Below are positions 14,195-61,657 of a stretch of DNA of 64,000 nt, piece by piece. This stretch comes from Streptacidiphilus melanogenes (GTDB taxonomy: Bacteria > Actinomycetota > Actinomycetes > Streptomycetales > Streptomycetaceae). The stretch spans positions 267,927 to 331,926 of the forward strand of contig NZ_BBPP01000001.1 in the NCBI RefSeq assembly GCF_000787835.1. Direction: 5' to 3'. Position numbers and translations under genes: made by a program. How positions within the stretch are numbered: position 1 is the first letter of the stretch; each line of letters starts with the position of its first letter. The notes below the pieces were generated by a model. That model was not told the origin of the DNA. It saw only the letters and a list, made by a program, of their open reading frames with translations, and searched no databases.

Positions 14195-14375
14195 CGCCCT
14201 GGATCGACGATCCGAAGGCGAGAGTCTCCTGGCTTCCGGATCGACGCACCGGCGGGCCTTCCAGCAGCATGGCGCTGCCGTGACCGTCGTTCGCAGGTGC
14301 TCCCCGGTGACAGTGGCGGGACCGCGCCGGATTCGCACCGGCTTCCTCTCCTTGCCTCCGATTGGCGTAAAGATC
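14195..14375 (-). promoter_or_regulatory. Cobalamin (adenosylcobalamin) riboswitch
   Basis: Read on the minus strand, this leader holds the conserved blocks of cobalamin riboswitches: GCCGGTGCGAATCCGGC followed by the GGTCCCGCCACTG segment, and further downstream a B12 box of the form AGCCAGGAGACTC (14223-14235 complement). It ends about 30 nt before the cobD GTG. Established knowledge: adenosylcobalamin binding represses downstream expression. No terminator with a U-run is evident after the box, so control of translation initiation is more likely. Outer boundaries are approximate. Confidence 0.93.
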
Positions 14376-48627: not shown

Positions 48628-51078
48628 ATGCCAGTGATCGACGACGCCGTGCACGGCACAGCCGCGGTCGACGCAGCCGCGGTCCAGCCCCTCGAGTCGG
48701 CGGCGGCGCCCCCGGCTCCCGGCGTGGCGGAGCGGGAGTCGCCCACGCGGATCCGGCTGATCTTCGTCGGGCTGATGCTGGCGCTGCTGCTCGCCGCCCT
48801 CGACCAGACCATCGTCGCCACCGCGCTGCCGCGGATCGTCGGCGACCTCGACGGCCTCAGCCGGATGAGCTGGGTCGTCACCGCCTACCTGCTCGCCTCC
48901 ACCGTCGGCCTGCCCGTCTACGGCCGGCTCGGCGACATGATCGGGCGCAAGCCCGTCTTCCAGTTCGCCATCGTCGTCTTCCTGGTGGGCTCCGCGCTGT
49001 CGGGCATCTCGCACAGCATGAACGAGCTGATCGCCTACCGCGCCCTCCAGGGCATCGGCGGCGGCGGGCTGATGATCGGCGTGCAGGCGATCATGGCGGA
49101 CGTGGTCTCGCCGCGCGAGCGCGGCCGCTACATGGGCCTGATCGGCGCCGTCTTCGGGCTCTCCTCCGTCGCCGGACCGCTGCTGGGCGGCTGGCTCACC
49201 GACGGGCCCGGCTGGCGCTGGTGCTTCTGGGTCAACCTGCCGGTCGGCGTCATCGCCCTGCTCGTCGTCACGCTCGTGCTCCCGCGCCGCACCCGGCGAG
49301 GCGGCGCCCGGGAGGCGGGCCGACTGGACTGGCCCGGCGCGCTGCTGCTCGCCGCCGTCGGCACCTGCCTGGTGCTGGCCACGAGTTGGGGCGGCAGCCG
49401 CTACGCCTGGCACTCCCCGGTCATTCTCGGGCTGATCGGGGGCTCGGTGCTGGCGACAGCGCTCTTCGTGCCCGTCGAGCGGCTGGCCGAACGACACGGC
49501 TACGCGCCCGCGATCCCGCTGCGGCTCTTCCGCGACAGCGTCTTCACCGTCTCCGGGCTGATCGGCCTGGTGGTCGGCGTCGGCCTGTTCGGCGCGGCCA
49601 GCTATCTGCCGAGCTTCCTGCAGATGGTCGACGGCGCGAGCGCCACCGGCTCCGGCCTGAAGATGCTGCCGCTGATGGGCGGCGTCGTGGTGGGCTCCAT
49701 CGGCACCGGCCAGCTGATCAGCCGGACCGGCCGCTACAAGATCTACCCCGTGCTGGGCGGCGCGCTCGGCGCGGCCGGCATGGTCCTGCTCGGCCTGCTG
49801 GACGCCCGCAGTTCCTACGCGGTGCAGAGCGTGGCCATGGCGGTGCTCGGGCTGGGCGTGGGACTCGCGCTCCCGGTGCTGGTCCTGGCCGTGCAGAACT
49901 CCGTCTCCCCGGGCGACATCGGCGCGGCCACCTCGGCCAACAACTACCTACGGCAGATCGGCGGTTCGGTCGGTGCAGCGGTCTTCGGCACGATCTTCTC
50001 CTCCCGCTTCGCGCACCAGCTCACCCAGCGCGGCCTGCGGGCGGACAACTCGATCACCCCGGAGCTGGTCCACCACCTCCCGCCGCCGCTGCGCGACGCG
50101 TACGTGCAGGCCTTCGCCGCCGCGATGCCACGCGTCTTCCTCTACCTGGCGCCCGTGCTGGCGCTGGGCTTCCTGCTCGGCTTCCTGCTGAAGGAGAAAC
50201 CGTTGGTGACCCACGCCGGCCCGGAGGACTTCACCTCGGAATCCGTCACCTCCCCCTCGTCCTCCCCCTCGTCCTCCCTCTCCGCTCCGTCCTCCGTGCC
50301 GCCGCAGGCGCCGACGACCGGCACGCCGGTCACCGGGGCCGTGCTGCAGACCGACCGGACGGGGGTGCCACGCGCCGTGCTGACCCTGGTCGACCTCGAC
50401 GGCCGCCAGATCGCCCGCACCGGCAGCGGCGGCGACGGCCGCTGGGCGCTGGCCGCTCCGCGCAACGGCAATTACGTGCTCATCGCGGCGGCCCCGGGCC
50501 ACCAGCCGCAGGCGGTCACGGTCACGGTGGGCGGCCGCCCGGTCGAGGTCGACGTCGTCCTCGGCGGCACCGGCCGCCTGGCGGGCGCGATCCGCAGCGC
50601 GGAGGGCGCGCCGGTGGCCGGCGCCTCGGTCACGCTGACGGACGGTCACGGCGAGGTCGTGGCCAGCGCCCACGCCGACTCCGACGGCGCATACGCGTTC
50701 CGCGACCTGGTCTCCGGCGTCTACACCCTGACCGTCAGCGCCCGGGCGTACCGCCCGGCGGCGACGGCGGTGGACGTCGCGCCCAACATCGAGACGCGCC
50801 AGGACATCACCCTGTCCGGCAGCGGCACCCTGCGCGGCACCGTCCGCACCACGGCCGGACGGCCGGTCGCCGACGCCCGGGTCACCCTGCTGGACGCGGC
50901 GGGCGCGGTGGTCGCGGCCGCGCTGACCGGCGAGGACGGCGCGTTCCGTTTCACCGATCTGGAGCCGGGTGAGTACACCGTGATCGCGGCGGGCTACCCG
51001 CCGGTCGCCACCGCCCTCCGCCTCGAGGACGGCCACACGGAACGGGATCTCCATCTGTCCCACCGCCTCGACGACTGA
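48628..51078 (+). CDS. DHA2-type MFS transporter fused to three carboxypeptidase-regulatory-like repeats
   Basis: 816 residues from ATG 48628 (AAGGA upstream). Residues about 30-525 are a 14-TM DHA2 drug/H+ antiporter: LDQTIVATALPRIVGDLDG and GRLGDMIGRKP (motif A). A Ser/Pro linker (about 530-560) leads to three roughly 83-residue beta-sandwich repeats (about 560-646, 647-730, 731-816), each with G-x-V-x(n)-PVAGA/VTL ... DGxYxFxDLxxGxYTL character. Such repeats are usually extracellular, but the standard 14-TM topology would leave this C-terminus in the cytoplasm. Substrate and repeat function unknown. Confidence 0.9.
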   Translation: MPVIDDAVHGTAAVDAAAVQPLESAAAPPAPGVAERESPTRIRLIFVGLMLALLLAALDQTIVATALPRIVGDLDGLSRMSWVVTAYLLASTVGLPVYGRLGDMIGRKPVFQFAIVVFLVGSALSGISHSMNELIAYRALQGIGGGGLMIGVQAIMADVVSPRERGRYMGLIGAVFGLSSVAGPLLGGWLTDGPGWRWCFWVNLPVGVIALLVVTLVLPRRTRRGGAREAGRLDWPGALLLAAVGTCLVLATSWGGSRYAWHSPVILGLIGGSVLATALFVPVERLAERHGYAPAIPLRLFRDSVFTVSGLIGLVVGVGLFGAASYLPSFLQMVDGASATGSGLKMLPLMGGVVVGSIGTGQLISRTGRYKIYPVLGGALGAAGMVLLGLLDARSSYAVQSVAMAVLGLGVGLALPVLVLAVQNSVSPGDIGAATSANNYLRQIGGSVGAAVFGTIFSSRFAHQLTQRGLRADNSITPELVHHLPPPLRDAYVQAFAAAMPRVFLYLAPVLALGFLLGFLLKEKPLVTHAGPEDFTSESVTSPSSSPSSSLSAPSSVPPQAPTTGTPVTGAVLQTDRTGVPRAVLTLVDLDGRQIARTGSGGDGRWALAAPRNGNYVLIAAAPGHQPQAVTVTVGGRPVEVDVVLGGTGRLAGAIRSAEGAPVAGASVTLTDGHGEVVASAHADSDGAYAFRDLVSGVYTLTVSARAYRPAATAVDVAPNIETRQDITLSGSGTLRGTVRTTAGRPVADARVTLLDAAGAVVAAALTGEDGAFRFTDLEPGEYTVIAAGYPPVATALRLEDGHTERDLHLSHRLDD

Positions 51079-51336
51079 TCCCAGTCAGATGGCGGTGCCC
51101 CCGCCGGAAGGCTGGGGGAGCACAGCCCTGCGCGTTCGAAGCCCCACCTGCGTGGGATGAGGGCGGCGGAGCCGCAGACCGGCCGAGCCCCGCGCCCCTG
51201 GACAGTGCAACGTCCGTCGCTGTTAACGACACAAGTCCCTCACAAGTGACGCTCCATCACCCGTCGCGGTAGAAGAATCCACCGCCCGGGTGAGCGCGAG
51301 CGTTCCTTTCCCGCCCACCGGCATAGGTTGCGCGAC
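51079..51336. promoter_or_regulatory. Control region of the exopolysaccharide operon with CACAAGT direct repeat
   Basis: No gene. CACAAGT occurs at 51230-51236 and 51241-51247, an exact 11-bp period (one helical turn), about 95 nt before the first glycosyltransferase start. Such spacing is typical of response-regulator tandem sites. Promoter hexamers are not clear. Confidence 0.4.
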
Positions 51337-52533
51337 GTGCCCAGTTGTGAACCCTTGACCATCCTCCATGTCTCGCAGCCCGTCGACGGCGGCGTCGCCC
51401 AGGTCGTCGCCGATCTGGTGCGCGGTCAGGTCGCGGACGGGCACACCGTGGTGGTGGCCTGCCCGTGTCCGGAGGGCGGGCGGTTGTCGCGGGAGGTGAG
51501 CGCCGCGGGCGCGCGGCTGGTGCCGTGGGGCGCGGAACGCGCCCCTGGCGCGGGGCTGCCGCAGGAGCTCACCGCGCTGCGGCGCATCGTCGCGGACGCG
51601 CGCCCGGACCTGGTGCACCTGCACAGCAGCAAGGCGGGGCTGGTGGGGCGGATGGCGATCCGCTCCCGTGTGGCGACGGTGTTCCAGCCGCACGCGTGGT
51701 CGTTCGAGGCGGTGGCGGGGCCCGCAGCCAAGGCGATCGCGCGGTGGGAGCGCTGGGCGACACGGTGGAGCGACCGGCTGGTGTGCGTCAGCGAGTCGGA
51801 GCGGGCCCACGGCCAGGCCGCGGGGCTGCGGGCCCGCTGGGCGCTGGTGCCGAACGGCGTGGACCTGACCCGCTACGATCCGGCCGCACTGCCGTCCAAG
51901 CAGCGTGCCCGGCGCGGGCTCGGACTGTCCCAGCACGCGCCGCTGGCGGTGTGTGTGGGGCGGCTGTGCCGGCAGAAGGGGCAGGACCTGCTGCTCCGCG
52001 CCTGGGGCGAGGTGCTGGCGGAGCTGCCGCACGCGCGGCTGGCCCTGGTCGGGGACGGGCCGGACCGTGGCGCGCTGGAGGAGCAGGCGGCGCAGCTGAC
52101 GGTGCCGGAGAGCGTCGTGTTCGCCGGGCGGGTGGAGGATCCGCGACCGTGGTACGCGGCCTCGGACATCACCGTGCTGCCGTCCCGTTGGGAGGGGATG
52201 GCGCTGGCGCCGCTGGAGGCGATGGCCTGTTCGCGTCCGGTGGTCCTGTCGGACGTCGCTGGGGCCCGGGAGATCCTGGGCGACCAGCAGTTTCCGGTGC
52301 CGGTGGGGGACACCAGGACGCTCGCGACGTCACTCGTCCGGCTGATGTCGGATCTGGAGCTGGCCGCCGAGCTCGGACGACGTTCCCGTGCCCGCGCCCA
52401 GGAACGTCACGACCTGCGTGCCACAAGGATGTTGATGGGTGAGGTGTATGCGGCGGTGCTGCAGTCGCGGCGCGTTCCCGCGCCCGCCGCGCCGAGGGCC
52501 GCGCAGGGCCATCGGGTCGGAAAGTCTGACTAA
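51337..52533 (+). CDS. GT4-family glycosyltransferase
   Basis: 398 residues from GTG 51337 (TTG 51328 is an alternative; neither has a clear ribosome site, so leaderless translation is possible). GT-B fold: ILHVSQPVDGGVAQVVADL acceptor loop, HLHSSKAG, VPNGVDLTRYDP, VCVGRLCRQKGQDLLLRA, and the E-x7-E-type nucleotide-sugar motif in PSRWEGMALAPLEAMA. Cytoplasmic transfer of a sugar onto the lipid-linked repeat unit is expected. First gene of the exopolysaccharide operon. Confidence 0.92.
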   Translation: MPSCEPLTILHVSQPVDGGVAQVVADLVRGQVADGHTVVVACPCPEGGRLSREVSAAGARLVPWGAERAPGAGLPQELTALRRIVADARPDLVHLHSSKAGLVGRMAIRSRVATVFQPHAWSFEAVAGPAAKAIARWERWATRWSDRLVCVSESERAHGQAAGLRARWALVPNGVDLTRYDPAALPSKQRARRGLGLSQHAPLAVCVGRLCRQKGQDLLLRAWGEVLAELPHARLALVGDGPDRGALEEQAAQLTVPESVVFAGRVEDPRPWYAASDITVLPSRWEGMALAPLEAMACSRPVVLSDVAGAREILGDQQFPVPVGDTRTLATSLVRLMSDLELAAELGRRSRARAQERHDLRATRMLMGEVYAAVLQSRRVPAPAAPRAAQGHRVGKSD

Positions 52534-52686
52534 TGGTCAATGGCGTGAAACCACTTGCCGCCCCCGAGATTCTGAGTAGAAATTCTGTAATGTCCTATTT
52601 GCCTGCATCATTCCTTTCCCCGTGAGACGGCGTCGATGCCGACCACGGCGGCAGGTGCTACCTCCGGCAGGGGAGTACGTGCGCGG

Positions 52687-54186
52687 ATGACCACGATCGA
52701 CAACGAGGAAGTGCCCACGGGCATGGGGGCGGTGGGTCTCGCACACGCCCGCGGGCACGGCTCCGGCCTCTCCTCCCCGGCCAGCACCCCGGCGGTGCGC
52801 GGCGGTACCGGCGTCCCGGTCACGCTGCTCGCGGTCGACATGCTGGCCGGCGTCGGCGCGCTCGCGGTGGTCCTCCCGGGGGGCGCCGTGGCCACCCTGC
52901 GCGCCGCATGCGGACTGCTGCCGGTCCTGGTGCTGATGTACTCCACGGGCGGGCAGTACCGGCTGCGTCTCGCGCCCTCGGTGCTGGACGAACTGCCGGG
53001 TCTGGCCGGGCGCGCCGCCATCGCCCTCGCCTTCGCGCTCACCCTGGAACGCTGCCTGCAGACCCTGTTGCTGCCCTTCGCCCTGCCCACGGTCATCCCG
53101 GCCGACATCCGCGTGCTGACGCTGCTCCTCGGAGTCCATCTCGCGCTGGACTCCGCCGGTCGCGCGGCCGTCTACCGGTCGCTGCGCGCGCGACGCCGTC
53201 GCGCCCCCCGGCCGACCCTCATCGCCGGAGCGGGCCACGTCGGCCAGCGGGTCGCCGCCGCGCTGCTGGAGCACCCGGAGTACGGGCTGCGCCCGGTCGG
53301 GTTCGTCGACGCCGACCCGCTCTTCCTGCCCGCCGACTTCCCCGTTCCGGTGGTCGGCGGACCGGAGGCCCTGATCCGCGAGCTGCCGCGGGGCGGCATC
53401 CGCGACGTGATCCTCACCGGCGGCGGCGCCGACGAGGACTGGGCCCCGCAGATGCTGCGCACGGCCACGGACTTCGGCTGTGACGTCTGGTTCGTGCCGT
53501 CCTTCCCCGACTACGCCGCCTTCGAGCACGCCGGCCGTCGCACCGCCGTCGGCGACCACCTGTGGGGCTTCCCCTGCCTGCGGCTGGGCAGCAGCCCGAT
53601 GGAGCGGCCCAGCTGGGCGGTCAAGCGGGCGTTCGACGCGTGCTGCGCGGGCCTCGGGCTGCTGGTGCTCTCCCCGGTGCTGCTGCTCTGCGCGGGTGCC
53701 GTGCGGCTCGAGGGCGGCCCCGGGGTGATCTTCCGTCAGGAGCGGATCGGCCTGGACGGAAGGCCCTTCACGGTGCTGAAGTTCCGCACGCTCCGGCCGG
53801 TCGACGAACACGAGTCGGCCACCCGCTGGAACATCTCCGACGACCACCGGCTCGGCCCGGTCGGGCGGTTCCTGCGCCGCGCCTCGCTCGACGAACTGCC
53901 GCAGCTCTGGAACGTGCTGCGCGGCGAGATGAGCCTGGTCGGCCCGAGGCCGGAGCGCCCGTACTTCGTGATGCGCTTCGCCCAGGCCTACCCGCGCTAC
54001 CGCGAGCGCCACCGCGTCCCGGTCGGCCTGACCGGTTTCGCCCAGGTCAACGGCCTGCGCGGGGACACCTCCATCGAGGACCGGGCGCGGTTCGACAACT
54101 ACTACATCGACAGCTGGAGCCTGTGGCAGGACGTCAAGATCCTGCTCCGCACGGTGCTCGCTGTTCTGCGGACGGACGGGAGTTGA
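52687..54186 (+). CDS. Exopolysaccharide polyprenyl glycosylphosphotransferase (WbaP/ExoY type)
   Basis: 499 residues from ATG 52687; ATG 52636 is an alternative. N-terminal four-to-five TM region (about 45-160), CoA-binding-like domain LIAGAGHVGQRVAAALLEHPEYGLRPVGFVD, and a C-terminal bacterial sugar transferase domain: KRAFDACCAGLGLL, FRQERIGLDGRPFTVLKFRT, SLDELPQLWNVLRGEMSLVGPRP. It starts repeat-unit synthesis by moving a sugar-1-phosphate to undecaprenyl phosphate. An AT-rich 150-nt gap precedes it and may hold a second promoter. Confidence 0.94.
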   Translation: MTTIDNEEVPTGMGAVGLAHARGHGSGLSSPASTPAVRGGTGVPVTLLAVDMLAGVGALAVVLPGGAVATLRAACGLLPVLVLMYSTGGQYRLRLAPSVLDELPGLAGRAAIALAFALTLERCLQTLLLPFALPTVIPADIRVLTLLLGVHLALDSAGRAAVYRSLRARRRRAPRPTLIAGAGHVGQRVAAALLEHPEYGLRPVGFVDADPLFLPADFPVPVVGGPEALIRELPRGGIRDVILTGGGADEDWAPQMLRTATDFGCDVWFVPSFPDYAAFEHAGRRTAVGDHLWGFPCLRLGSSPMERPSWAVKRAFDACCAGLGLLVLSPVLLLCAGAVRLEGGPGVIFRQERIGLDGRPFTVLKFRTLRPVDEHESATRWNISDDHRLGPVGRFLRRASLDELPQLWNVLRGEMSLVGPRPERPYFVMRFAQAYPRYRERHRVPVGLTGFAQVNGLRGDTSIEDRARFDNYYIDSWSLWQDVKILLRTVLAVLRTDGS

Positions 54187-54190
54187 CGGG

Positions 54191-55585
54191 GTGTCCCCAC
54201 AACTGGGACAGCGGGCCCGGCCGGGAGGCGCGCTGCGGGGCGGGTCGGCCGCGGGGCTGCTGCCGCGGGTGCGCGCGGCGCTGAGCCCGGCGCAGCTGGT
54301 CGCGCTGACGATCCTGCTGGTCTGCGTGCCGACGGGGGAGCAGGACGTGACCGCCGCGGTGCACGTGACGCCGGCGGACGTCGGGTCGACGGTGCTGGTC
54401 GCGGCCACGCTGCCGCTCGCGCTGTGGCGGCGGACGCGCTTCCTGGGCCACTCGACGGCGCTGCTCCTCGGCGGCGTGCTGCTGGCCGTCGGCATGGCGA
54501 CCGCTGCCTCGCAGGACCCGCACGAGAGCCTCTCGGGCTTCGTGCGCTTCGTGCAGATCTTCGTGATCGTGCCGGCCGCCGTCGCCTACGCCGTCCGCGA
54601 CCGCCGCGACCTGAGGCTGGCGCTGACCGCCTTCGCGGCGGCCGCGCTGGTCGAGGGCGCGGTCGGCGTCGAGCAGTACCTGACCGGAACCGGCGCGTCC
54701 TACGCGGGCGGAGACTCCCGCGCGGTCGGCACCTTCGGTGCGCAGGACGTGATGGCGATGTCCGTGGTGGTCAGCTTCGGTCTGCTGGCCGCGCTCGGCC
54801 TGTCGTTGGAGGCGCGCCGCGAGCGGCGGCGCAGGGCCTCGGCCTGGTGGACGCTGGCGGCCGCGGCCCTGGCCGTGCCGCTCGCGCTCTCCTTCAGCCG
54901 CGGCAGCTGGATCGCCACGGCCGTCGCCGTGACGCTGATGCTGGCGCTCGCCGACGTCCGGCTGCTGCTGCGCGGCGGCGTCGTCCTGGCGGCGGCCGGG
55001 GTCGTGCTGCTCGGCGGGCTCACCGCCGCAGGCGTGGTCGGCAACGGCAACGGCGGGGACGGCACGGTGGCGGCCAGGCTCAGCAGCATCGGCTCCGTCA
55101 CCGGTGAGGCCGACCAGTCCGTGACCGACCGCTACGACCTGTGGACCACCGCCGGACGGATCTGGCGCGAGCATCCGCTGACCGGCGTCGGCCCCAAGGA
55201 GTTCCCCGCCTTCCGCGACGCCCACGCCCCACTGCGGCTCTCCTCCGGCAGCGACACCGCCGGCGCGGGCGCGGGCTTCTCCCGCGAACCGCTGCTGTCG
55301 CCCCACAACATGTACATGCTGGTCCTCAGCGAGCAGGGCCTGATCGGCATCACCGCCTTCGCCGCGCTGATGCTCGGGACGTTGCTCGGCGCGCGCCGCA
55401 CGCCCGTCGTGGTCGGGCTGCTGATCTGGCAGCTGGTCGACTTCCTCTACGGCGACATCGGAGGCACCACCACCGTGCTGGTCTCGGTGGTGGTGGGCCT
55501 GTGCGCGTCGGCCGTGGCCCGGGGCGGACTGCCGGCCATCCCCGGACCGCGCAGTGAGCCCAGCTTGTGGGAGGCGACGCGGTGA
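54191..55585 (+). CDS. O-antigen-ligase-like polysaccharide polymerase (Wzy type)
   Basis: 464 residues from GTG 54191, 4 nt after the previous stop. About 11-12 TM helices with a large outer loop (about 285-370) containing the Wzy/WaaL-type WREHPLTGVGPKEFP and a HNMYML motif, both hallmarks of the O-antigen ligase/polymerase family. Likely polymerises flipped repeat units outside the membrane. Its stop overlaps the GTG of the flippase gene. Confidence 0.9.
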   Translation: MSPQLGQRARPGGALRGGSAAGLLPRVRAALSPAQLVALTILLVCVPTGEQDVTAAVHVTPADVGSTVLVAATLPLALWRRTRFLGHSTALLLGGVLLAVGMATAASQDPHESLSGFVRFVQIFVIVPAAVAYAVRDRRDLRLALTAFAAAALVEGAVGVEQYLTGTGASYAGGDSRAVGTFGAQDVMAMSVVVSFGLLAALGLSLEARRERRRRASAWWTLAAAALAVPLALSFSRGSWIATAVAVTLMLALADVRLLLRGGVVLAAAGVVLLGGLTAAGVVGNGNGGDGTVAARLSSIGSVTGEADQSVTDRYDLWTTAGRIWREHPLTGVGPKEFPAFRDAHAPLRLSSGSDTAGAGAGFSREPLLSPHNMYMLVLSEQGLIGITAFAALMLGTLLGARRTPVVVGLLIWQLVDFLYGDIGGTTTVLVSVVVGLCASAVARGGLPAIPGPRSEPSLWEATR

Positions 55586-57621
55586 GCGTCACCACCGCGG
55601 AGGACGCGACCGAGGAGGAGACCGGGGAGGCGGCCGTGCCCGCCGCCGAGCGGGGCCGCGGCTTCGTGGCCAAGGCCTTCGGCGTCACCGCGCTGTTCAG
55701 CGCGGCCGGTTCGGTCCTCGGCCTGGTGCGCGACCTGCTGCTGGCCCGCTTCTACGGAGCGGGCTCCGCGACCGACGCGTTCCTGGTCTCCTGGACCGTC
55801 CCCGAGACGGCGGCGCCGCTGCTCATCGAGGACGGCATGGCCTTCCTGACCGTCCCCGCCTTCAGCGCCGCGCTCGCGGCGCGCGGGCAGTCGGACGGCG
55901 GCCCGTCGGAGCGCGGCTCGTCGGCAGAGCACGGCGGGGACGCCGCCGACCCGGTCCGCGCCCTGGTCGCTGCGACGTTGCCGCCGCTGGCACTGGCACT
56001 GGCACTACTGTCGGCCCTGGTCGCGCTCGGCGCGCCGGTCATGGTCCACGTCCTCGCCCCGGGACTGGCGGACCCGCGGCTGGCGGTCGTCTGCACCCGG
56101 CTCGCCGCCGTCACGGTGCTGCCGTTCGGCCTCGTCGGCTACCTCGGTGCGGGCCTGCGCTCGCACCACCGCTTCACCCTGCCGGGCGCGGTCTACATCG
56201 CCTACAACGCCGGAATCCTGACGGTGATGCTGCTGCTCCACGCCAGCCTCGGCGTCCGCGCCGCGGCGGGCGGGGTGGCGCTCGGCAGCGTGCTGATGGT
56301 GGCCGTGCTGCTGCCCGCGTTCGCGCGCCACGTCAGCCGGGTGACCGTGCGTCGACTGCGCGCCGAGGCGCGCGGGTCGTGCGGGTGGCAACCGGTGCTG
56401 AACCCGATGGCGGTGCTGCCGGTGGTGCTGTTCACACTGACACGGCAGGCGCAGGTCTTCGTCGAGCGGTTCATCGGCTCCTCGCTGCCGCCCGGCACCA
56501 TCTCGCATCTGAACTACGCCGAGAAGGTCGCCCAGAACGTGATGATCATCGGGATCCTGGTCTGCACGGTGACCTTCCCGCTGATCGCCCGCGCGCTCGC
56601 CGAGGGCGACGTCCTGGGCGCGCGGACCCGCGTCGAGAAGGACCTCGGCGTCGTCGGCGCCGTCGTGCTGGCCGGCACGGTCGTCGTCTTCGCCTGCGCG
56701 CCGCAGCTGGTCGCGGTCCTGTTCGAGCGTGGGGCCTTCACCGCCGCCGACACCGCCGCGACGGCGCTGCTGATGCGCGTCTACTGCCTCGGCCTGCTGG
56801 CCCAGGGCCTGGTCGGCGCGCTGATCCGCCCCTACCTCGCGGCCCGTCCGGCGGTCGGCTTCGGCGGCGAGGGCCGCGCCCGCCCGCTCGACCGGACGGA
56901 CTGGCTGCCGATCTGGGCGATGGGCGCCGGTCTGCTGGTGACCATCGCGGTCGCCGCCGGTCTGACGCCCCACGTAGGCGCGGCCGGGCTCGCGGCCGGC
57001 AACGCCACCGGCATCAGCGTCACCGCCGTCCTGCTGCTCAGGGCCCTGCGGGCACGCGGCATCCCGGTGCGGCCGCGCGCCGTCCTCGGCGGCCAGCTGC
57101 GGCTGCTGCTGGCCGCGGCGGGTGCCGCCGTGCCCGCCTGGCTCGCCGCCAACATCCCGGGCCTGGACGCCGTGGGGGCGTTCCCGCCGTTGGTGCTCGG
57201 CACGCTCGCGGGACTGCTGTCCTTCCTCGCCCTGGCCGCGGCGTTGCGAGCCCCCGAGATCACCGGTGTCACCGGGGTGCTCGGCCCCGTGCGGGACCGG
57301 CTGGCCGCCGCCCGGCCGCCCGCCGCCGTGCGGCGTCGACGGCGCGGTCCGACTGGCGCGGCGCGACCCCGCTTCACCAGGCGAGGACAGGGCGAGCCCA
57401 CGCCCGCGCGCGGCTCCGGCGCGCGGGCACAGGGGCCTCAGGGTCCGGGTCATCGCAGCCCCGGGGCGCGAGCACCCGGGGACGGGCGCCGGGCGAACGC
57501 CCCAGGCGGCCGGCACGGGACCGGCCAGCTCGGCGCGGGCCCGCACGGGCTCGGTCCACACGGGGTCGGTCAACACAGCACAGGGATCGAACGAGCGACG
57601 GGAGAGGCTGATGGTCGCTGA
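55582..57621 (+). CDS. MurJ/MviN-family lipid flippase, probable Wzx role
   Basis: 679 residues from GTG 55582 (GTGA overlap; GGGAGG 7 nt upstream). The core (about 25-575) has 13-14 helices with MurJ features SVLGLVRDLLLARFYGAGSATDAFLVSW and a later ARPAVGFGGEG loop. A low-complexity Gly/Ala/Arg tail (about 585-679) ends with PHGLGPHGVGQH-type repeats. Located inside a polysaccharide operon between polymerase and deacetylase, it probably flips the lipid-linked repeat unit rather than lipid II. The end overlaps the deacetylase start by 11 nt. Confidence 0.9.
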   Translation: MSVTTAEDATEEETGEAAVPAAERGRGFVAKAFGVTALFSAAGSVLGLVRDLLLARFYGAGSATDAFLVSWTVPETAAPLLIEDGMAFLTVPAFSAALAARGQSDGGPSERGSSAEHGGDAADPVRALVAATLPPLALALALLSALVALGAPVMVHVLAPGLADPRLAVVCTRLAAVTVLPFGLVGYLGAGLRSHHRFTLPGAVYIAYNAGILTVMLLLHASLGVRAAAGGVALGSVLMVAVLLPAFARHVSRVTVRRLRAEARGSCGWQPVLNPMAVLPVVLFTLTRQAQVFVERFIGSSLPPGTISHLNYAEKVAQNVMIIGILVCTVTFPLIARALAEGDVLGARTRVEKDLGVVGAVVLAGTVVVFACAPQLVAVLFERGAFTAADTAATALLMRVYCLGLLAQGLVGALIRPYLAARPAVGFGGEGRARPLDRTDWLPIWAMGAGLLVTIAVAAGLTPHVGAAGLAAGNATGISVTAVLLLRALRARGIPVRPRAVLGGQLRLLLAAAGAAVPAWLAANIPGLDAVGAFPPLVLGTLAGLLSFLALAAALRAPEITGVTGVLGPVRDRLAAARPPAAVRRRRRGPTGAARPRFTRRGQGEPTPARGSGARAQGPQGPGHRSPGARAPGDGRRANAPGGRHGTGQLGAGPHGLGPHGVGQHSTGIERATGEADGR

Positions 57622-58453
57622 ACCGCTTCGGGGTGGGCTGCAGGCGGCGGGGGGCACGCCCCCGCCGGTGGACGCGGAAGAGCCGGCCAGACCGGACGTC
57701 GTCGCCCAGCCGCAGCCGGACGGGAGCGCCTCGCCGCGCCCCGCACTGCTCGGCCGCCCGCCGTGGACGCTGATGTACCACTCCGTCGACTCCGGCCCGC
57801 AGGACCCGTACCTGCTCACGGTCTCGCCGCAGCGCTTCGCCGCGCAACTGGCCTGGCTGCACCGGAACGGCCTGCGCGGGGTGTCCATGCGCGAACTGGT
57901 CCGCGCCTACGAGCAGCGCACCACCGACGGGTTGGTCGGCCTGACCTTCGACGACGGCTACGCCGACTTCCCGCGCCGGGTGCTCCCTGCCCTGCGGGCC
58001 CACGGCTTCACCGCGACCCTGTACGTCGTCGCCGGGCGCATGGGCGGTCACAACGTCTGGGACGCCGACGCCCCGCGCAAGCCGCTGGTGACCATCGAAC
58101 AGGTACGTCAACTGGCCGATGCCGGGGTGGAGATCGGCTCGCACGGGCTCAGTCACCGGCGGATGACCGGCCTCGGCGAGGAGGAGCTGGCCACCGAGGC
58201 GCGGCGCAGCCGCGAGGTGCTGGAGAGCGTCGTCCAGCGGCCCGTCACCGGCTTCTGCTACCCCTACGGGGCCGTCGACGCCGCCGCCGAGCGGGCCGTC
58301 GCCGCCGCGGGCTACGACTACGGCGCGGGCATCCGCCACCAGTCCACGACCAGCCGCTGGGCGCTGCCGCGGTGCTATGTCGGCGAGCGTGACGGCGGTC
58401 TGCGCCTGCGCGCCAAGCGCCTGCGCCACGCGTTGCGGGGGTGGTCCGCGTGA
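57611..58453 (+). CDS. Polysaccharide deacetylase (NodB/CE4 domain)
   Basis: 280 residues from ATG 57611 with GGGAGAGG upstream. NodB motifs: LTFDDGYADF (motif 1, Asp-Asp metal/base pair), EIGSHGLSHRRM (motif 2, H-x3-H), CYPYGAVDAA (motif 3) and a later YDYGAG. No signal peptide or TM is evident; the first 45 residues are disordered. It would deacetylate an N-acetylated sugar in the exopolysaccharide, pointing to an amino sugar in the repeat unit (inference). The TGA overlaps the next GTG. Confidence 0.92.
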   Translation: MVAEPLRGGLQAAGGTPPPVDAEEPARPDVVAQPQPDGSASPRPALLGRPPWTLMYHSVDSGPQDPYLLTVSPQRFAAQLAWLHRNGLRGVSMRELVRAYEQRTTDGLVGLTFDDGYADFPRRVLPALRAHGFTATLYVVAGRMGGHNVWDADAPRKPLVTIEQVRQLADAGVEIGSHGLSHRRMTGLGEEELATEARRSREVLESVVQRPVTGFCYPYGAVDAAAERAVAAAGYDYGAGIRHQSTTSRWALPRCYVGERDGGLRLRAKRLRHALRGWSA

Positions 58454-59706
58454 GCGGCCCCCGGCTGCGGGTCCTGCACGTCGTCACCGGCCTGCACGCG
58501 GGCGGCGCGGAGCAGCAGCTGCGACTGCTGCTGCGTCACCTGCCCGCCGGGATCGACTGCGAGGTCGTCGCGCTGTGCGACGCGGGCGCCGTGGCCGACG
58601 GCCTGCGCGCCGACGGCGTCACCGTGCACGAGCTGGACATGCGTGGCAACCGGGACCTGACGGCGCTGCCGCGCCTGGTCCGGCTGATCCGCGAGGGCCG
58701 CTACGACCTGGTGCACTGTCACCTGTACCGCGCCTGCGTCTACGGCCGGGTCGCCGCCCGGCTCGCGGGCGTCCGCGCGGTGCTGGCCACCGAGCACTCG
58801 CTCCAGCCCGGCCTGCTGGAGGGCCGGCGCACCGGCGCGACCGTGCGGCGGCTCTATCTGGCCACCGAGCGGCTCGGCCAGGTCACCATCGCCGTCTCCG
58901 AGGCGACGGCCCGTCAACTGCGGACCTGGGACGTGCCGGAGGAGCGCATCAGGGTCGTGCCCAACGGCATCGACCCCGCCGCGTACCGGGTCGAGCCGAC
59001 GCCCCGCGCGTCCCTCGGCCTGCCCGCCGACGCCTTCGTCGTCGGCGCGGTCGGCCGCCTCGTGCCCGGCAAGCGGTTCGACGTCCTGGTGGACGCGGTC
59101 GCGCTGCTCCCGCCCGAGGCGCACCTCCTGGTCGTCGGCACCGGACCCGAACGCGAGGCGCTGCTCGCGCAGGCCCGCGAGCGCGGCGTCGCCGACCGGG
59201 TCGTGCTGACCGGCGAGCGGGACGACGTGCCGGCGCTGCTGGCCACGATGGACGCGCTCGCCGCCCCCTCGGCGGGTGAGACCTTCGGCCTGGTCCTCGT
59301 CGAGGGCCTCGCCTCCGGCCTCCCCGTCTTCTGGTCCTCCGGCCCGGCGCTGGCCGAACTCCCGGTCCAGGAGCAGCTCGCCCTCGGCCGCGGCGGCAGC
59401 GCCCGCACCGAACCCACCGCCGCCGCGTACGCGGCGGCCCTGCGCCCGCTCCTCACCCGCCGTCCACCCCGCACCGTCGGCCCGGTCCCGGGCCGCTACG
59501 ACATCACCCGCCTCGCCCCCCGCGTCGCCGCGGTCTACGCCGAACTCGCGTGCGAGACCGCGCCGCGCGGCGGGAGTGTCCGGGCCGGGGGGACCGTCGG
59601 GGCACGACTCCAGGTGCCGCCCGCCCCCGTCCCGGCGCGGCCGGGCCCCGTGGCCGCCGCGCCGAGTGCATCGAACGTCACCGCATCGCACACCCGAAGG
59701 AGATGA
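58450..59706 (+). CDS. GT4-family glycosyltransferase (second)
   Basis: 418 residues from GTG 58450 in the GTGA overlap. LHVVTGLHAGGAEQQLRLLLRHL, HCHLYRACVYGR, VVPNGIDPAAY, VGAVGRLVPGKRFDVLVDAV and PSAGETFGLVLVEGLASGLPV are GT-B/GT4 signatures, with donor-site Glu residues in the last. About 50 C-terminal residues are low-complexity. Likely adds a second sugar to the lipid-linked repeat unit. Confidence 0.92.
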   Translation: MSGPRLRVLHVVTGLHAGGAEQQLRLLLRHLPAGIDCEVVALCDAGAVADGLRADGVTVHELDMRGNRDLTALPRLVRLIREGRYDLVHCHLYRACVYGRVAARLAGVRAVLATEHSLQPGLLEGRRTGATVRRLYLATERLGQVTIAVSEATARQLRTWDVPEERIRVVPNGIDPAAYRVEPTPRASLGLPADAFVVGAVGRLVPGKRFDVLVDAVALLPPEAHLLVVGTGPEREALLAQARERGVADRVVLTGERDDVPALLATMDALAAPSAGETFGLVLVEGLASGLPVFWSSGPALAELPVQEQLALGRGGSARTEPTAAAYAAALRPLLTRRPPRTVGPVPGRYDITRLAPRVAAVYAELACETAPRGGSVRAGGTVGARLQVPPAPVPARPGPVAAAPSASNVTASHTRRR

Positions 59707-59709
59707 CCC

Positions 59710-60432
59710 GTGCCCGACAGCGAGAAGCAGACCGCAGCCGCACCGTCAGCACCCGCGTCGCACGCCGCCGAGCGCCGGTCCGCGCTGCTGCGCTCGGCGC
59801 TGCGCCGGTGGTGGCCGCTGCTGGTGGCGGTGCCCGCGGGCGCCATGGCCGGTGGGGCGTACGCGCTGGTGGCCACCCCGCAGTACCAGTCCGACGCCTA
59901 CGTGATGGCCGTCGCCGACCAGGGCGCGGACAGCGCCTCCGCCGTCAGCTTCGCCTCGGCCTACGGCCGGGTCGTCGCGCAGCCGGAGATCCTGGCGAGC
60001 GCGGCCGCCGACACCGGTGTGCCGATGGGTGAGCTGGCCAAGGACGTCCAGGCACAGACCTCCCCGGACGCGCCGATGATCCAGATCACCGGCAGCGCGA
60101 GCTCCGCCCGGCTCGCCGCCGACGAGGCGAACGCGGTGGCCCGTTCGTTGGTCGACTTCGGCGGGACCACCGCGCAGCAGACGCACGTGCGGCTGATCGC
60201 GCTCGCCCAGGCCGCCGCGCCCGCGGCCCCGTCCTCGCCGTCCCGCAGCCTGGACGCCGCCGTCGGCGGCGCGGCGGGACTGCTGCTGGGCAGCCTTGCG
60301 CTGCTGACCCGTCCGGCGGCGGGAGGCGCGGCCGCCGAGCGCGGGGCACGGGGCGCCGCGACGCCGACCGGACCGGTCGACCCGGCGAACGTGCCCGAGC
60401 AGCAGCGCGAGTCCGCGGGGACGGGCGCATGA
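59710..60432 (+). CDS. Wzz-like chain-length/lipopolysaccharide biosynthesis membrane protein
   Basis: 240 residues from GTG 59710, with GAAGGAG 7 nt upstream. Two TM helices (about 38-58 and 177-198) flank an extracytoplasmic domain that begins ATPQYQSDAYVMA, the usual Wzz lead-in. A short disordered tail follows. No Walker motifs or Tyr cluster, so the kinase half of two-domain co-polymerases is absent. Expected to set polymer length with the Wzy-like protein. Confidence 0.85.
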   Translation: MPDSEKQTAAAPSAPASHAAERRSALLRSALRRWWPLLVAVPAGAMAGGAYALVATPQYQSDAYVMAVADQGADSASAVSFASAYGRVVAQPEILASAAADTGVPMGELAKDVQAQTSPDAPMIQITGSASSARLAADEANAVARSLVDFGGTTAQQTHVRLIALAQAAAPAAPSSPSRSLDAAVGGAAGLLLGSLALLTRPAAGGAAAERGARGAATPTGPVDPANVPEQQRESAGTGA

Positions 60433-61607
60433 CGACGGCGGTCCGCTCCGACGCGGCCGACGGCGGCCCCGCAGACGCCGCGCCGCGGTACGAGACCGAG
60501 GTCGTCCGCGACGGTCGCGCGCTGGAGGCGCTCGCGGGGGAGTGGAACGAGCTTCAGGAGCGCAGCCCCGGGGCGACGCCGTTCCAGTGCCACGCCTGGC
60601 TCTCCTCCTGGTGGCACAGCTACGGCCGACCGGGACGCCTGCGCGTGGTGACGGTCCGTCGGGACGGGGGGCTGATCGCGGTCGCGCCCTTCTACTGCGA
60701 CGGCGCGGTCCTGCGGCCGCTCGGCGCGGAGATCACCGACTTCCACGACGTGCTGCTGGACCGCGCGTGCCTGGACGAGGCGGCGCGGCGGCTGGCCGCC
60801 GCGCTCGCGGCGGAGCTGCGCGGCCCGTTCGCCCGGATCGACCTGCCGGAGGTCCGCGCGGACGCGGCGATCCATGCCGTGCTGGCCCACTGGCCCCGTT
60901 CGGCCCGCAAGCTGCCCGCATCCCTGGTCCAGCATCTGCCCAGCATGCCGATGGAGGAGCTGCTGACGCGGCTGCCCGGCCGCACCGCGCAGCGCACCAG
61001 GGTCAAGCTCCGCAAGCTGGCCGCGGCCGGCGTCGAGGTCCGTCTGGTGCCGCCGTGGGAGGCCCCGGAGTCGGTCGACCGCATGCTCGCCCTGCACGCC
61101 CTCCAGTGGCGTGACCGTGGCGCGACCCCGGAGCACATGCGGGAACGCTTCGCGTCCCACCTCCGCGCGGCGGCCACCGGCATGGCCGCGACCGAGCGCG
61201 CCCAACTGCGCGAGTACCGGCTCGACGGGCGTCTCATCGCCTGCGACCTGATGCTCCAGAGCCAGGCGATGGTCGCGCTCTACGTCTACGGCGTCCACCC
61301 CGAGGCGCGGGAGCGCGTCGACATCGCCGGCATGCTCTTCGGCGAGTCCCTCACCCACGCGGTCAACACCGGGCGCACGGAGGTGAGCCTGCTGCGCGGC
61401 GACGAGCCGTACAAGCAGCGCTGGCGTCCGGACCCGGCGCCCAACGAGCGCCTGCTCCTCGGGTCGGCCCCGACCGTCGCGGTCACCGTCTGCCTGGCGC
61501 GCGCGCAGGACCGGGCGAAGGACGTCGCCCGCCGTCGCATGCCGTGGCTGCGGGAGGTCAGGAACCACCTGCGCGTGGTCAAGGGCCGGGTCCTGCGGCA
61601 CGGATGA
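60429..61607 (+). CDS. CelD-like GNAT acyltransferase (Acetyltransf_6/FemAB-like)
   Basis: 392 residues from ATG 60429 overlapping the previous stop (ATGA). Two-lobed GNAT architecture; ATPFQCHAWLSSWWHSYG near residues 48-65 is characteristic of the cellulose-biosynthesis CelD group; the C-terminal lobe includes REYRLDGRLIACDLML and GDEPYKQRW (about 330). It likely acylates a sugar of the exopolysaccharide or its lipid-linked precursor (inference). Last gene of the operon, followed by a hairpin. Confidence 0.85.
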   Translation: MTTAVRSDAADGGPADAAPRYETEVVRDGRALEALAGEWNELQERSPGATPFQCHAWLSSWWHSYGRPGRLRVVTVRRDGGLIAVAPFYCDGAVLRPLGAEITDFHDVLLDRACLDEAARRLAAALAAELRGPFARIDLPEVRADAAIHAVLAHWPRSARKLPASLVQHLPSMPMEELLTRLPGRTAQRTRVKLRKLAAAGVEVRLVPPWEAPESVDRMLALHALQWRDRGATPEHMRERFASHLRAAATGMAATERAQLREYRLDGRLIACDLMLQSQAMVALYVYGVHPEARERVDIAGMLFGESLTHAVNTGRTEVSLLRGDEPYKQRWRPDPAPNERLLLGSAPTVAVTVCLARAQDRAKDVARRRMPWLREVRNHLRVVKGRVLRHG

Positions 61608-61610
61608 GCC

Positions 61611-61657
61611 GCGGCTCCGCCGCGTGGCGGCTCTTCGCGTCCACGCGGCGGAGCCGC
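61611..61657 (+). terminator. Perfect 17-bp hairpin terminator of the exopolysaccharide operon
   Basis: Arms 61611-61627 and 61641-61657 with a 13-nt loop, starting 3 nt after the acyltransferase stop codon. Confidence 0.85.

Follow-up and report, generated by a model that had tools for sequence, protein, structure and literature searches.

Which lipid-linked molecule is handled by a MurJ-family flippase whose gene lies within a polysaccharide operon? The question is raised by a block of eight genes in a 64 000-nucleotide stretch of the Streptacidiphilus melanogenes genome (hereafter, the window; the assembly comprises 8.77 Mb in 107 contigs). The evidence discussed below indicates that this block is likely to encode a Wzx/Wzy-type exopolysaccharide system that is conserved across Streptomycetaceae and in which a dedicated MurJ-family protein, denoted MurJ2, appears to take the place of Wzx.

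A compact block of eight genes

The block occupies positions 51337-61607 on the plus strand of the window, and Pfam and NCBIfam profile searches assign all eight genes to the families named in a preliminary description of this DNA. The first gene, GT4a (51337-52533), encodes a cytosolic GT4 glycosyltransferase of 398 aa (PF13692, 3e-37; PF13439, 1e-29), and is followed by the initiator, a polyprenyl-phosphate hexose-1-phosphate transferase of 516 aa (52636-54186; PF02397, 1e-64; TIGR03025), by a Wzy_C protein of 464 aa with at least 8 transmembrane (TM) segments in the hydropathy profile, which is a Wzy-like polymerase or ligase (54191-55585; PF04932, 5e-15), and by MurJ2, a MurJ-family protein of 679 aa that ends in a C-terminal tail of low complexity and is the presumed Wzx (55582-57621; PF03023, 8e-39). 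The remaining genes encode a CE4 polysaccharide deacetylase of 280 aa (57611-58453; PF01522, 3e-29), a second GT4 glycosyltransferase, GT4b, of 418 aa (58450-59706; PF13439, 1e-28), a kinase-less Wzz-like chain-length protein of 240 aa (59710-60432; PF02706) and a cytosolic GNAT acyltransferase of 392 aa that belongs to the CelD/BioF2-like family and has no TM segments (60429-61607; PF13480, 3e-25). The tight packing that had been described from the initiator onward is confirmed, with successive gaps of 4, -4, -11, -4, 3 and -4 nt. GT4a stands apart, 102 nt upstream of the initiator, and heads the block in 44 of the 46 inspected relatives.

The hairpin said to end the operon exists as a perfect inverted repeat with 17-bp arms and a 13-nt loop (61611-61657, plus strand), beyond the expectation from shuffled sequence, and is one of six inverted repeats in the window whose arms measure 13 bp or longer. 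There is no T-run at the hairpin, and comparison of the loci finds none at the matching position in the three nearest relatives, so that it is at most an ordinary, terminator-like element.

An MFS gene precedes the block and ynfA follows the GNAT gene, and these two are its neighbours only in Streptacidiphilus and near relatives. The MFS gene (48628-51078) encodes a DHA2-type efflux protein with fused C-terminal CarboxypepD_reg/SdrD_B-like repeats and its position immediately 5' of the block is conserved in Streptacidiphilus and in genus group g15. Elsewhere in the window, a cobalamin riboswitch (Rfam RF00174, 85.6 bits) lies on the minus strand at 14200-14374.

Conservation across Streptomycetaceae

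The block genes have orthologues in three Streptacidiphilus species (S. anmyonensis, S. jiangxiensis and S. fuscans), in which synteny covers the block as well as its flanks (SRPBCC, MFS, ynfA and PQQ genes). In comparisons with S. anmyonensis and S. jiangxiensis, dN/dS lies within the 0.10-0.36 range for all eight genes, which are thus real and subject to purifying selection.

The distribution extends far beyond the genus. MurJ2 is present in all 14 genus genomes and in 163 of the 200 Streptomycetaceae genomes, which does not support a rare or strain-specific glycan. The eight genes are colinear in 41 of the 46 inspected loci, three more loci contain seven genes and no recognizable GNAT, and Streptomyces linear plasmids carry the block in identical order. 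The eight-gene arrangement is, then, a conserved trait of Streptomycetaceae.

In the other two of the 46 loci (L062:6087-9852 and L070:5427-9692), CE4, GNAT and MurJ2 occur alone, without the initiator, Wzy or Wzz. This association suggests that the three proteins form a functional module, and MurJ2 may therefore serve other lipid-linked units as well. The neighbours of these variants are a PucR regulator and an arginase in L062, and an aminotransferase and a molybdopterin oxidoreductase in L070.

Enzymes of the block and the predicted pathway

The initiator scores above the cut-off of the general EPS sugar transferase model (TIGR03025, 355 vs 296 bits) and that of PF02397, and below those of WcaJ (320 vs 411) and WbaP (TIGR03022, 221 vs 403), so that its original label, ‘WbaP-type', does not hold. 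The catalytic region, DE...GPRPERP, is invariant in 24 sequences. At least two further initiator loci exist in the same genome (G000:C77:13974-18604 and G000:C94:98188-118466, denoted L102 and L101, respectively), one of which has a BY-kinase-type protein and the other a PF01943 flippase at a distance of about 19 kb; the one clear BY-kinase-type protein of the genome is encoded on contig C77, near another initiator than that of the block. The Wzz-like protein of the block has two TM segments (36-56 and 181-201) and, according to hydropathy and Pfam analysis, no kinase domain; its match to PF02706 is short and scores 30.8 bits against a cut-off of 25.5. Matches to the models of the XrtA/PEP-CTERM clusters (EpsB_2, stp2, pepcterm_polyde and PEP_O_lig_1) are all far below the cut-offs.

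The CE4 motifs TFDDG, GSHxxxH and YPYG, which comprise the Asp-His-His metal site and the catalytic Asp, are invariant in 27 sequences. Hydropathy analysis detects neither a signal peptide nor a TM segment in CE4 and GNAT, and accordingly these enzymes most likely modify the lipid-linked unit prior to flipping. Of the N-deacetylated, possibly O-acylated amino sugar that had been proposed as a component of the glycan, deacetylation and acylation both appear plausible given the invariant CE4 residues; the acyl group may go on O or N, with the pairing of CE4 with GNAT favouring N.

Taken together, the family assignments support a complete route of polymer assembly, as originally proposed. The initiator would load a hexose-1-phosphate on undecaprenyl phosphate, and GT4a (which probably contributes a sugar residue to the lipid-linked unit) and GT4b would lengthen the product into a short repeat. 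In the cytosol, CE4 would then strip the N-acetyl group from an amino sugar within this repeat, which the GNAT would acylate, perhaps at the freed amine, both steps taking place prior to export. The modified unit would be turned across the membrane by MurJ2 and polymerized by the Wzy_C protein, with the Wzz-like protein setting the chain length.

The final location of the polymer is a sub-question within the exopolysaccharide explanation. Wzy-type polymers of Gram-positive bacteria are often linked to the cell wall, and an LCP enzyme encoded outside the block could link the product of the same pathway to peptidoglycan, rather than leaving it as free exopolysaccharide. The Streptomyces lividans genes SLIV_24125/24130 (MurJ and O-antigen-ligase genes), which are possibly an orthologous pair, are upregulated in a cell-wall-stressed strain (PMC10768272), in line with wall linkage; against it, no LCP gene is found among the block genes and the scanned neighbours, and we regard wall attachment as possible but not as the expected outcome.

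A rival to the exopolysaccharide explanation would be a glycoprotein or glycolipid product, with the Wzy_C protein acting as a ligase that moves a lipid-linked oligosaccharide to a protein or a lipid. The PF04932 family, for which this protein scores above the cut-off, includes ligases, and its top NCBIfam match is a putative O-glycosylation ligase model, albeit with a score of 40.7 against a cut-off of 188. Such a product seems improbable because a Wzz-like protein is encoded in every complete block, which suits chain-length control and not the transfer of single units, and because the block contains no conserved acceptor protein.

MurJ2 is distinct from the housekeeping MurJ

The preliminary description took the MurJ-like protein for a paralogue of the essential MurJ, and the genome does encode a separate housekeeping MurJ (contig C85, 839 aa). 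The latter scores 410 bits with the MurJ equivalog model (TIGR01695, cut-off 235.55), whereas MurJ2 matches this model over its full length with 164 bits, and MurJ2 together with three orthologues spans 157-175 bits, so that all four fall below the cut-off. With the MurJ superfamily model PF03023, MurJ2 reaches 133.9 against a gathering score of 27.4, which places a MOP-superfamily flippase in the cluster; the Pfam scan yields no match of MurJ2 to PF01943 or PF13440. MurJ2 is the sole flippase inside the block, and the Wzx-type proteins of the genome (PF01943) are encoded on contigs C94 and C99.

Phylogenetic analysis, which had been proposed as a check, points in the same direction. In a tree of 66 proteins, a branch with 100/100 support sets the 19 MurJ2 sequences apart from the rest, and a joint clade of MurJ2 with the housekeeping MurJ of the family is rejected (p-AU 1.8e-7); hence MurJ2 did not arise as a recent copy of the housekeeping gene at the family level. 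The identity between MurJ2 and the housekeeping MurJ of the same genome is 20%. The deep placement of MurJ2 is limited by long branches, which meet near two MurJ paralogues of the actinobacterial family f19 (L112:1856-8708 and L116:663-7161), the nearest outsiders. Glycan genes are found near both of these paralogues: L112 has an initiator and a GT4, and L116 has a GT4 as well as a weak match to Wzy. More generally, extra MurJ-family copies are common in Actinomycetota, several of them adjoining GT4 or initiator genes, so that glycan loci with a MurJ paralogue are not rare and the use of such a paralogue as Wzx had been called ‘unusual' with some overstatement.

R24, D25 and D39 are kept in all 20 MurJ2 sequences examined, and the position of Escherichia coli R270 is K in all 20. 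Two other residues differ, with S or A in place of R18 and E in place of N49. By-eye alignment indicates that the housekeeping MurJ of the same genome retains R18 and R24; the gaps at these positions in the housekeeping rows of the residue alignment, which begin past residue 25, reflect trimming. Loss of R52 and R270 was considered as a diagnostic of MurJ2 and rejected because actinobacterial housekeeping MurJs also vary at both positions. In MurJ, the R24-D25-R255 triad touches the pyrophosphate (PMC11706664); given that R24 and D25 are kept, a polyprenyl-pyrophosphate substrate with a different sugar head would fit MurJ2. The AlphaFold model of MurJ2 (four sequences) has a mean pLDDT of 36 and is unusable, so that the fold assignment rests on sequence. 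We found no MurJ2-class protein with a tested substrate.

Multiple lipid II flippases occur in some bacteria, and MurJ2 does match the MurJ model along its entire length, but the notion that it is another such flippase (for example, for sporulation peptidoglycan) that lies in a glycan operon by chance is very hard to reconcile with the equivalog scores of all four orthologues, the distinct clade, the changes at R18 and N49, and the translational packing of the gene with exopolysaccharide genes and its retention with them family-wide. By these sequence comparisons, MurJ2 is a MurJ-family paralogue distinct from the essential MurJ, and presumably a dedicated flippase for the lipid-linked unit of the exopolysaccharide.

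Linkage to chaplin genes

On two Streptomyces plasmids, annotated chaplin genes adjoin the block, and, of the first 26 loci, 12 have chaplin genes in the vicinity according to a similarity search. As the control, 18 whole genomes were scanned with PF03777. Of the 11 genomes from genus groups g13 and g6, 10 encode between one and four chaplins within 12 kb of MurJ2, compared with a chance of ~1-2% per genome for a random position; these genomes share ancestry and may not represent ten independent events. In groups g1, g15 and g18, the same scan shows no chaplin within 12 kb of MurJ2 in any of the seven genomes, that of the window included; this linkage is absent in Streptacidiphilus. The chaplin genes (loci L009-L011, L058-L061, L066-L069, L071, L140-L143, L145, L146, L152, L154 and L155) are mostly divergent from GT4a; in L009, L059 and L061, one chaplin lies 3' of GNAT on the same strand. 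The named Streptomyces plasmid sequences sit among those of g13 in a tree, and a single ancestral linkage may have been retained in the two genus groups and the plasmids.

In Streptomyces coelicolor, chpF is SCO2705, and chpA and chpD are SCO2716 and SCO2717. Locus-tag interpolation places the S. lividans pair SLIV_24125/24130 roughly in the SCO2705-2717 stretch, which provides a lead (PMC10768272). The linkage with chaplins is a new observation and the most useful lead from this analysis. Proximity to these genes points to a role at the surface of aerial hyphae or spores, and we tentatively propose that the block might produce the glycan matrix that seats chaplin amyloids on the aerial hyphae and spores of Streptomycetaceae, its exporter coming from a MurJ-derived flippase lineage specialized away from lipid II.

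Comparison with characterized systems

The nearest tested systems are the imp and wps-1 clusters of Actinoplanes missouriensis, which, together with wps-3, are likewise actinomycete Wzx/Wzy clusters; deletion of wps-1 distorts the sporangia, and imp and wps-1 are both needed for normal sporangia (PMC13390465). Like the block, wps-3 encodes a GT4, an O-antigen-ligase-like Wzy, a Wzz, a polysaccharide deacetylase and a BioF2-like acyltransferase (PMC13390465). The wps clusters differ from the block in gene order and in having extra genes, and, unlike MurJ2, the Wzx proteins predicted for wps-1 to wps-3 are assigned to IPR050833, with 11-13 TM segments, in a paper that makes no mention of MurJ (PMC13390465).

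The Caulobacter holdfast (hfs) system resembles the block in its lipid-linked glycan route and in combining a deacetylase, HfsH, with a GNAT, HfsK (PMC5362036, PMC8449245), and HfsK has been proposed to acylate the amines exposed by HfsH (PMC5362036). The CE4 of the block matches the HfsH model with 6e-13 and the initiator matches the HfsE model with 1e-43, both under the cut-off. The holdfast system differs in that it is Gram-negative, includes anchor proteins and has hfsK outside the hfs locus.

Among Streptomyces, the ebosin (ste) cluster of strain 139 is, by its description, an exopolysaccharide cluster that shares with the block genes for a sugar transferase (ste5) and for Wzz (ste8), and differs in having 27 ORFs, an ABC transporter and a sugar-nucleotide gene. 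MatAB, from Streptomyces, is a locus for a surface polysaccharide and includes a deacetylase domain of the NodB type (PMC4391728), comparable to CE4, which also weakly matches PgaB of Ica/Pga-type poly-GlcNAc synthesis. Both MatAB and the Ica/Pga type differ from the block in that they are synthase systems, with the deacetylase fused to a GT2 synthase and no initiator, flippase or Wzy. A single-protein counterpart is S. coelicolor Q9KYG0 (TC 8.A.3.4.1), a Wzz-like protein of 239 aa with two TM segments, encoded beside GT and polysaccharide deacetylase genes (PMC3924187), and, matched by description, probably the orthologue of the Wzz-like protein of the block. Q9KYG0 has been noted only in a 2013 transporter census, which left its MOP partner open (PMC3924187). 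The literature searched, largely from outside subscription journals, yielded no characterization of the block, including in connection with a Streptomyces MurJ, Wzx or SCO2706-2711.

Implications

The system described here occurs in about four fifths of the Streptomycetaceae genomes, and a characterized product is apparently absent from the papers searched. MurJ2 is a natural case of a MurJ-family protein that has apparently been re-aimed at another lipid-linked sugar, and as such is useful for learning what determines the choice of substrate in MOP flippases. For the biology of the family, the chaplin link in part of it turns the presence of this block into a testable question, namely, what glycan lies beneath the chaplin layer on aerial hyphae and spores.
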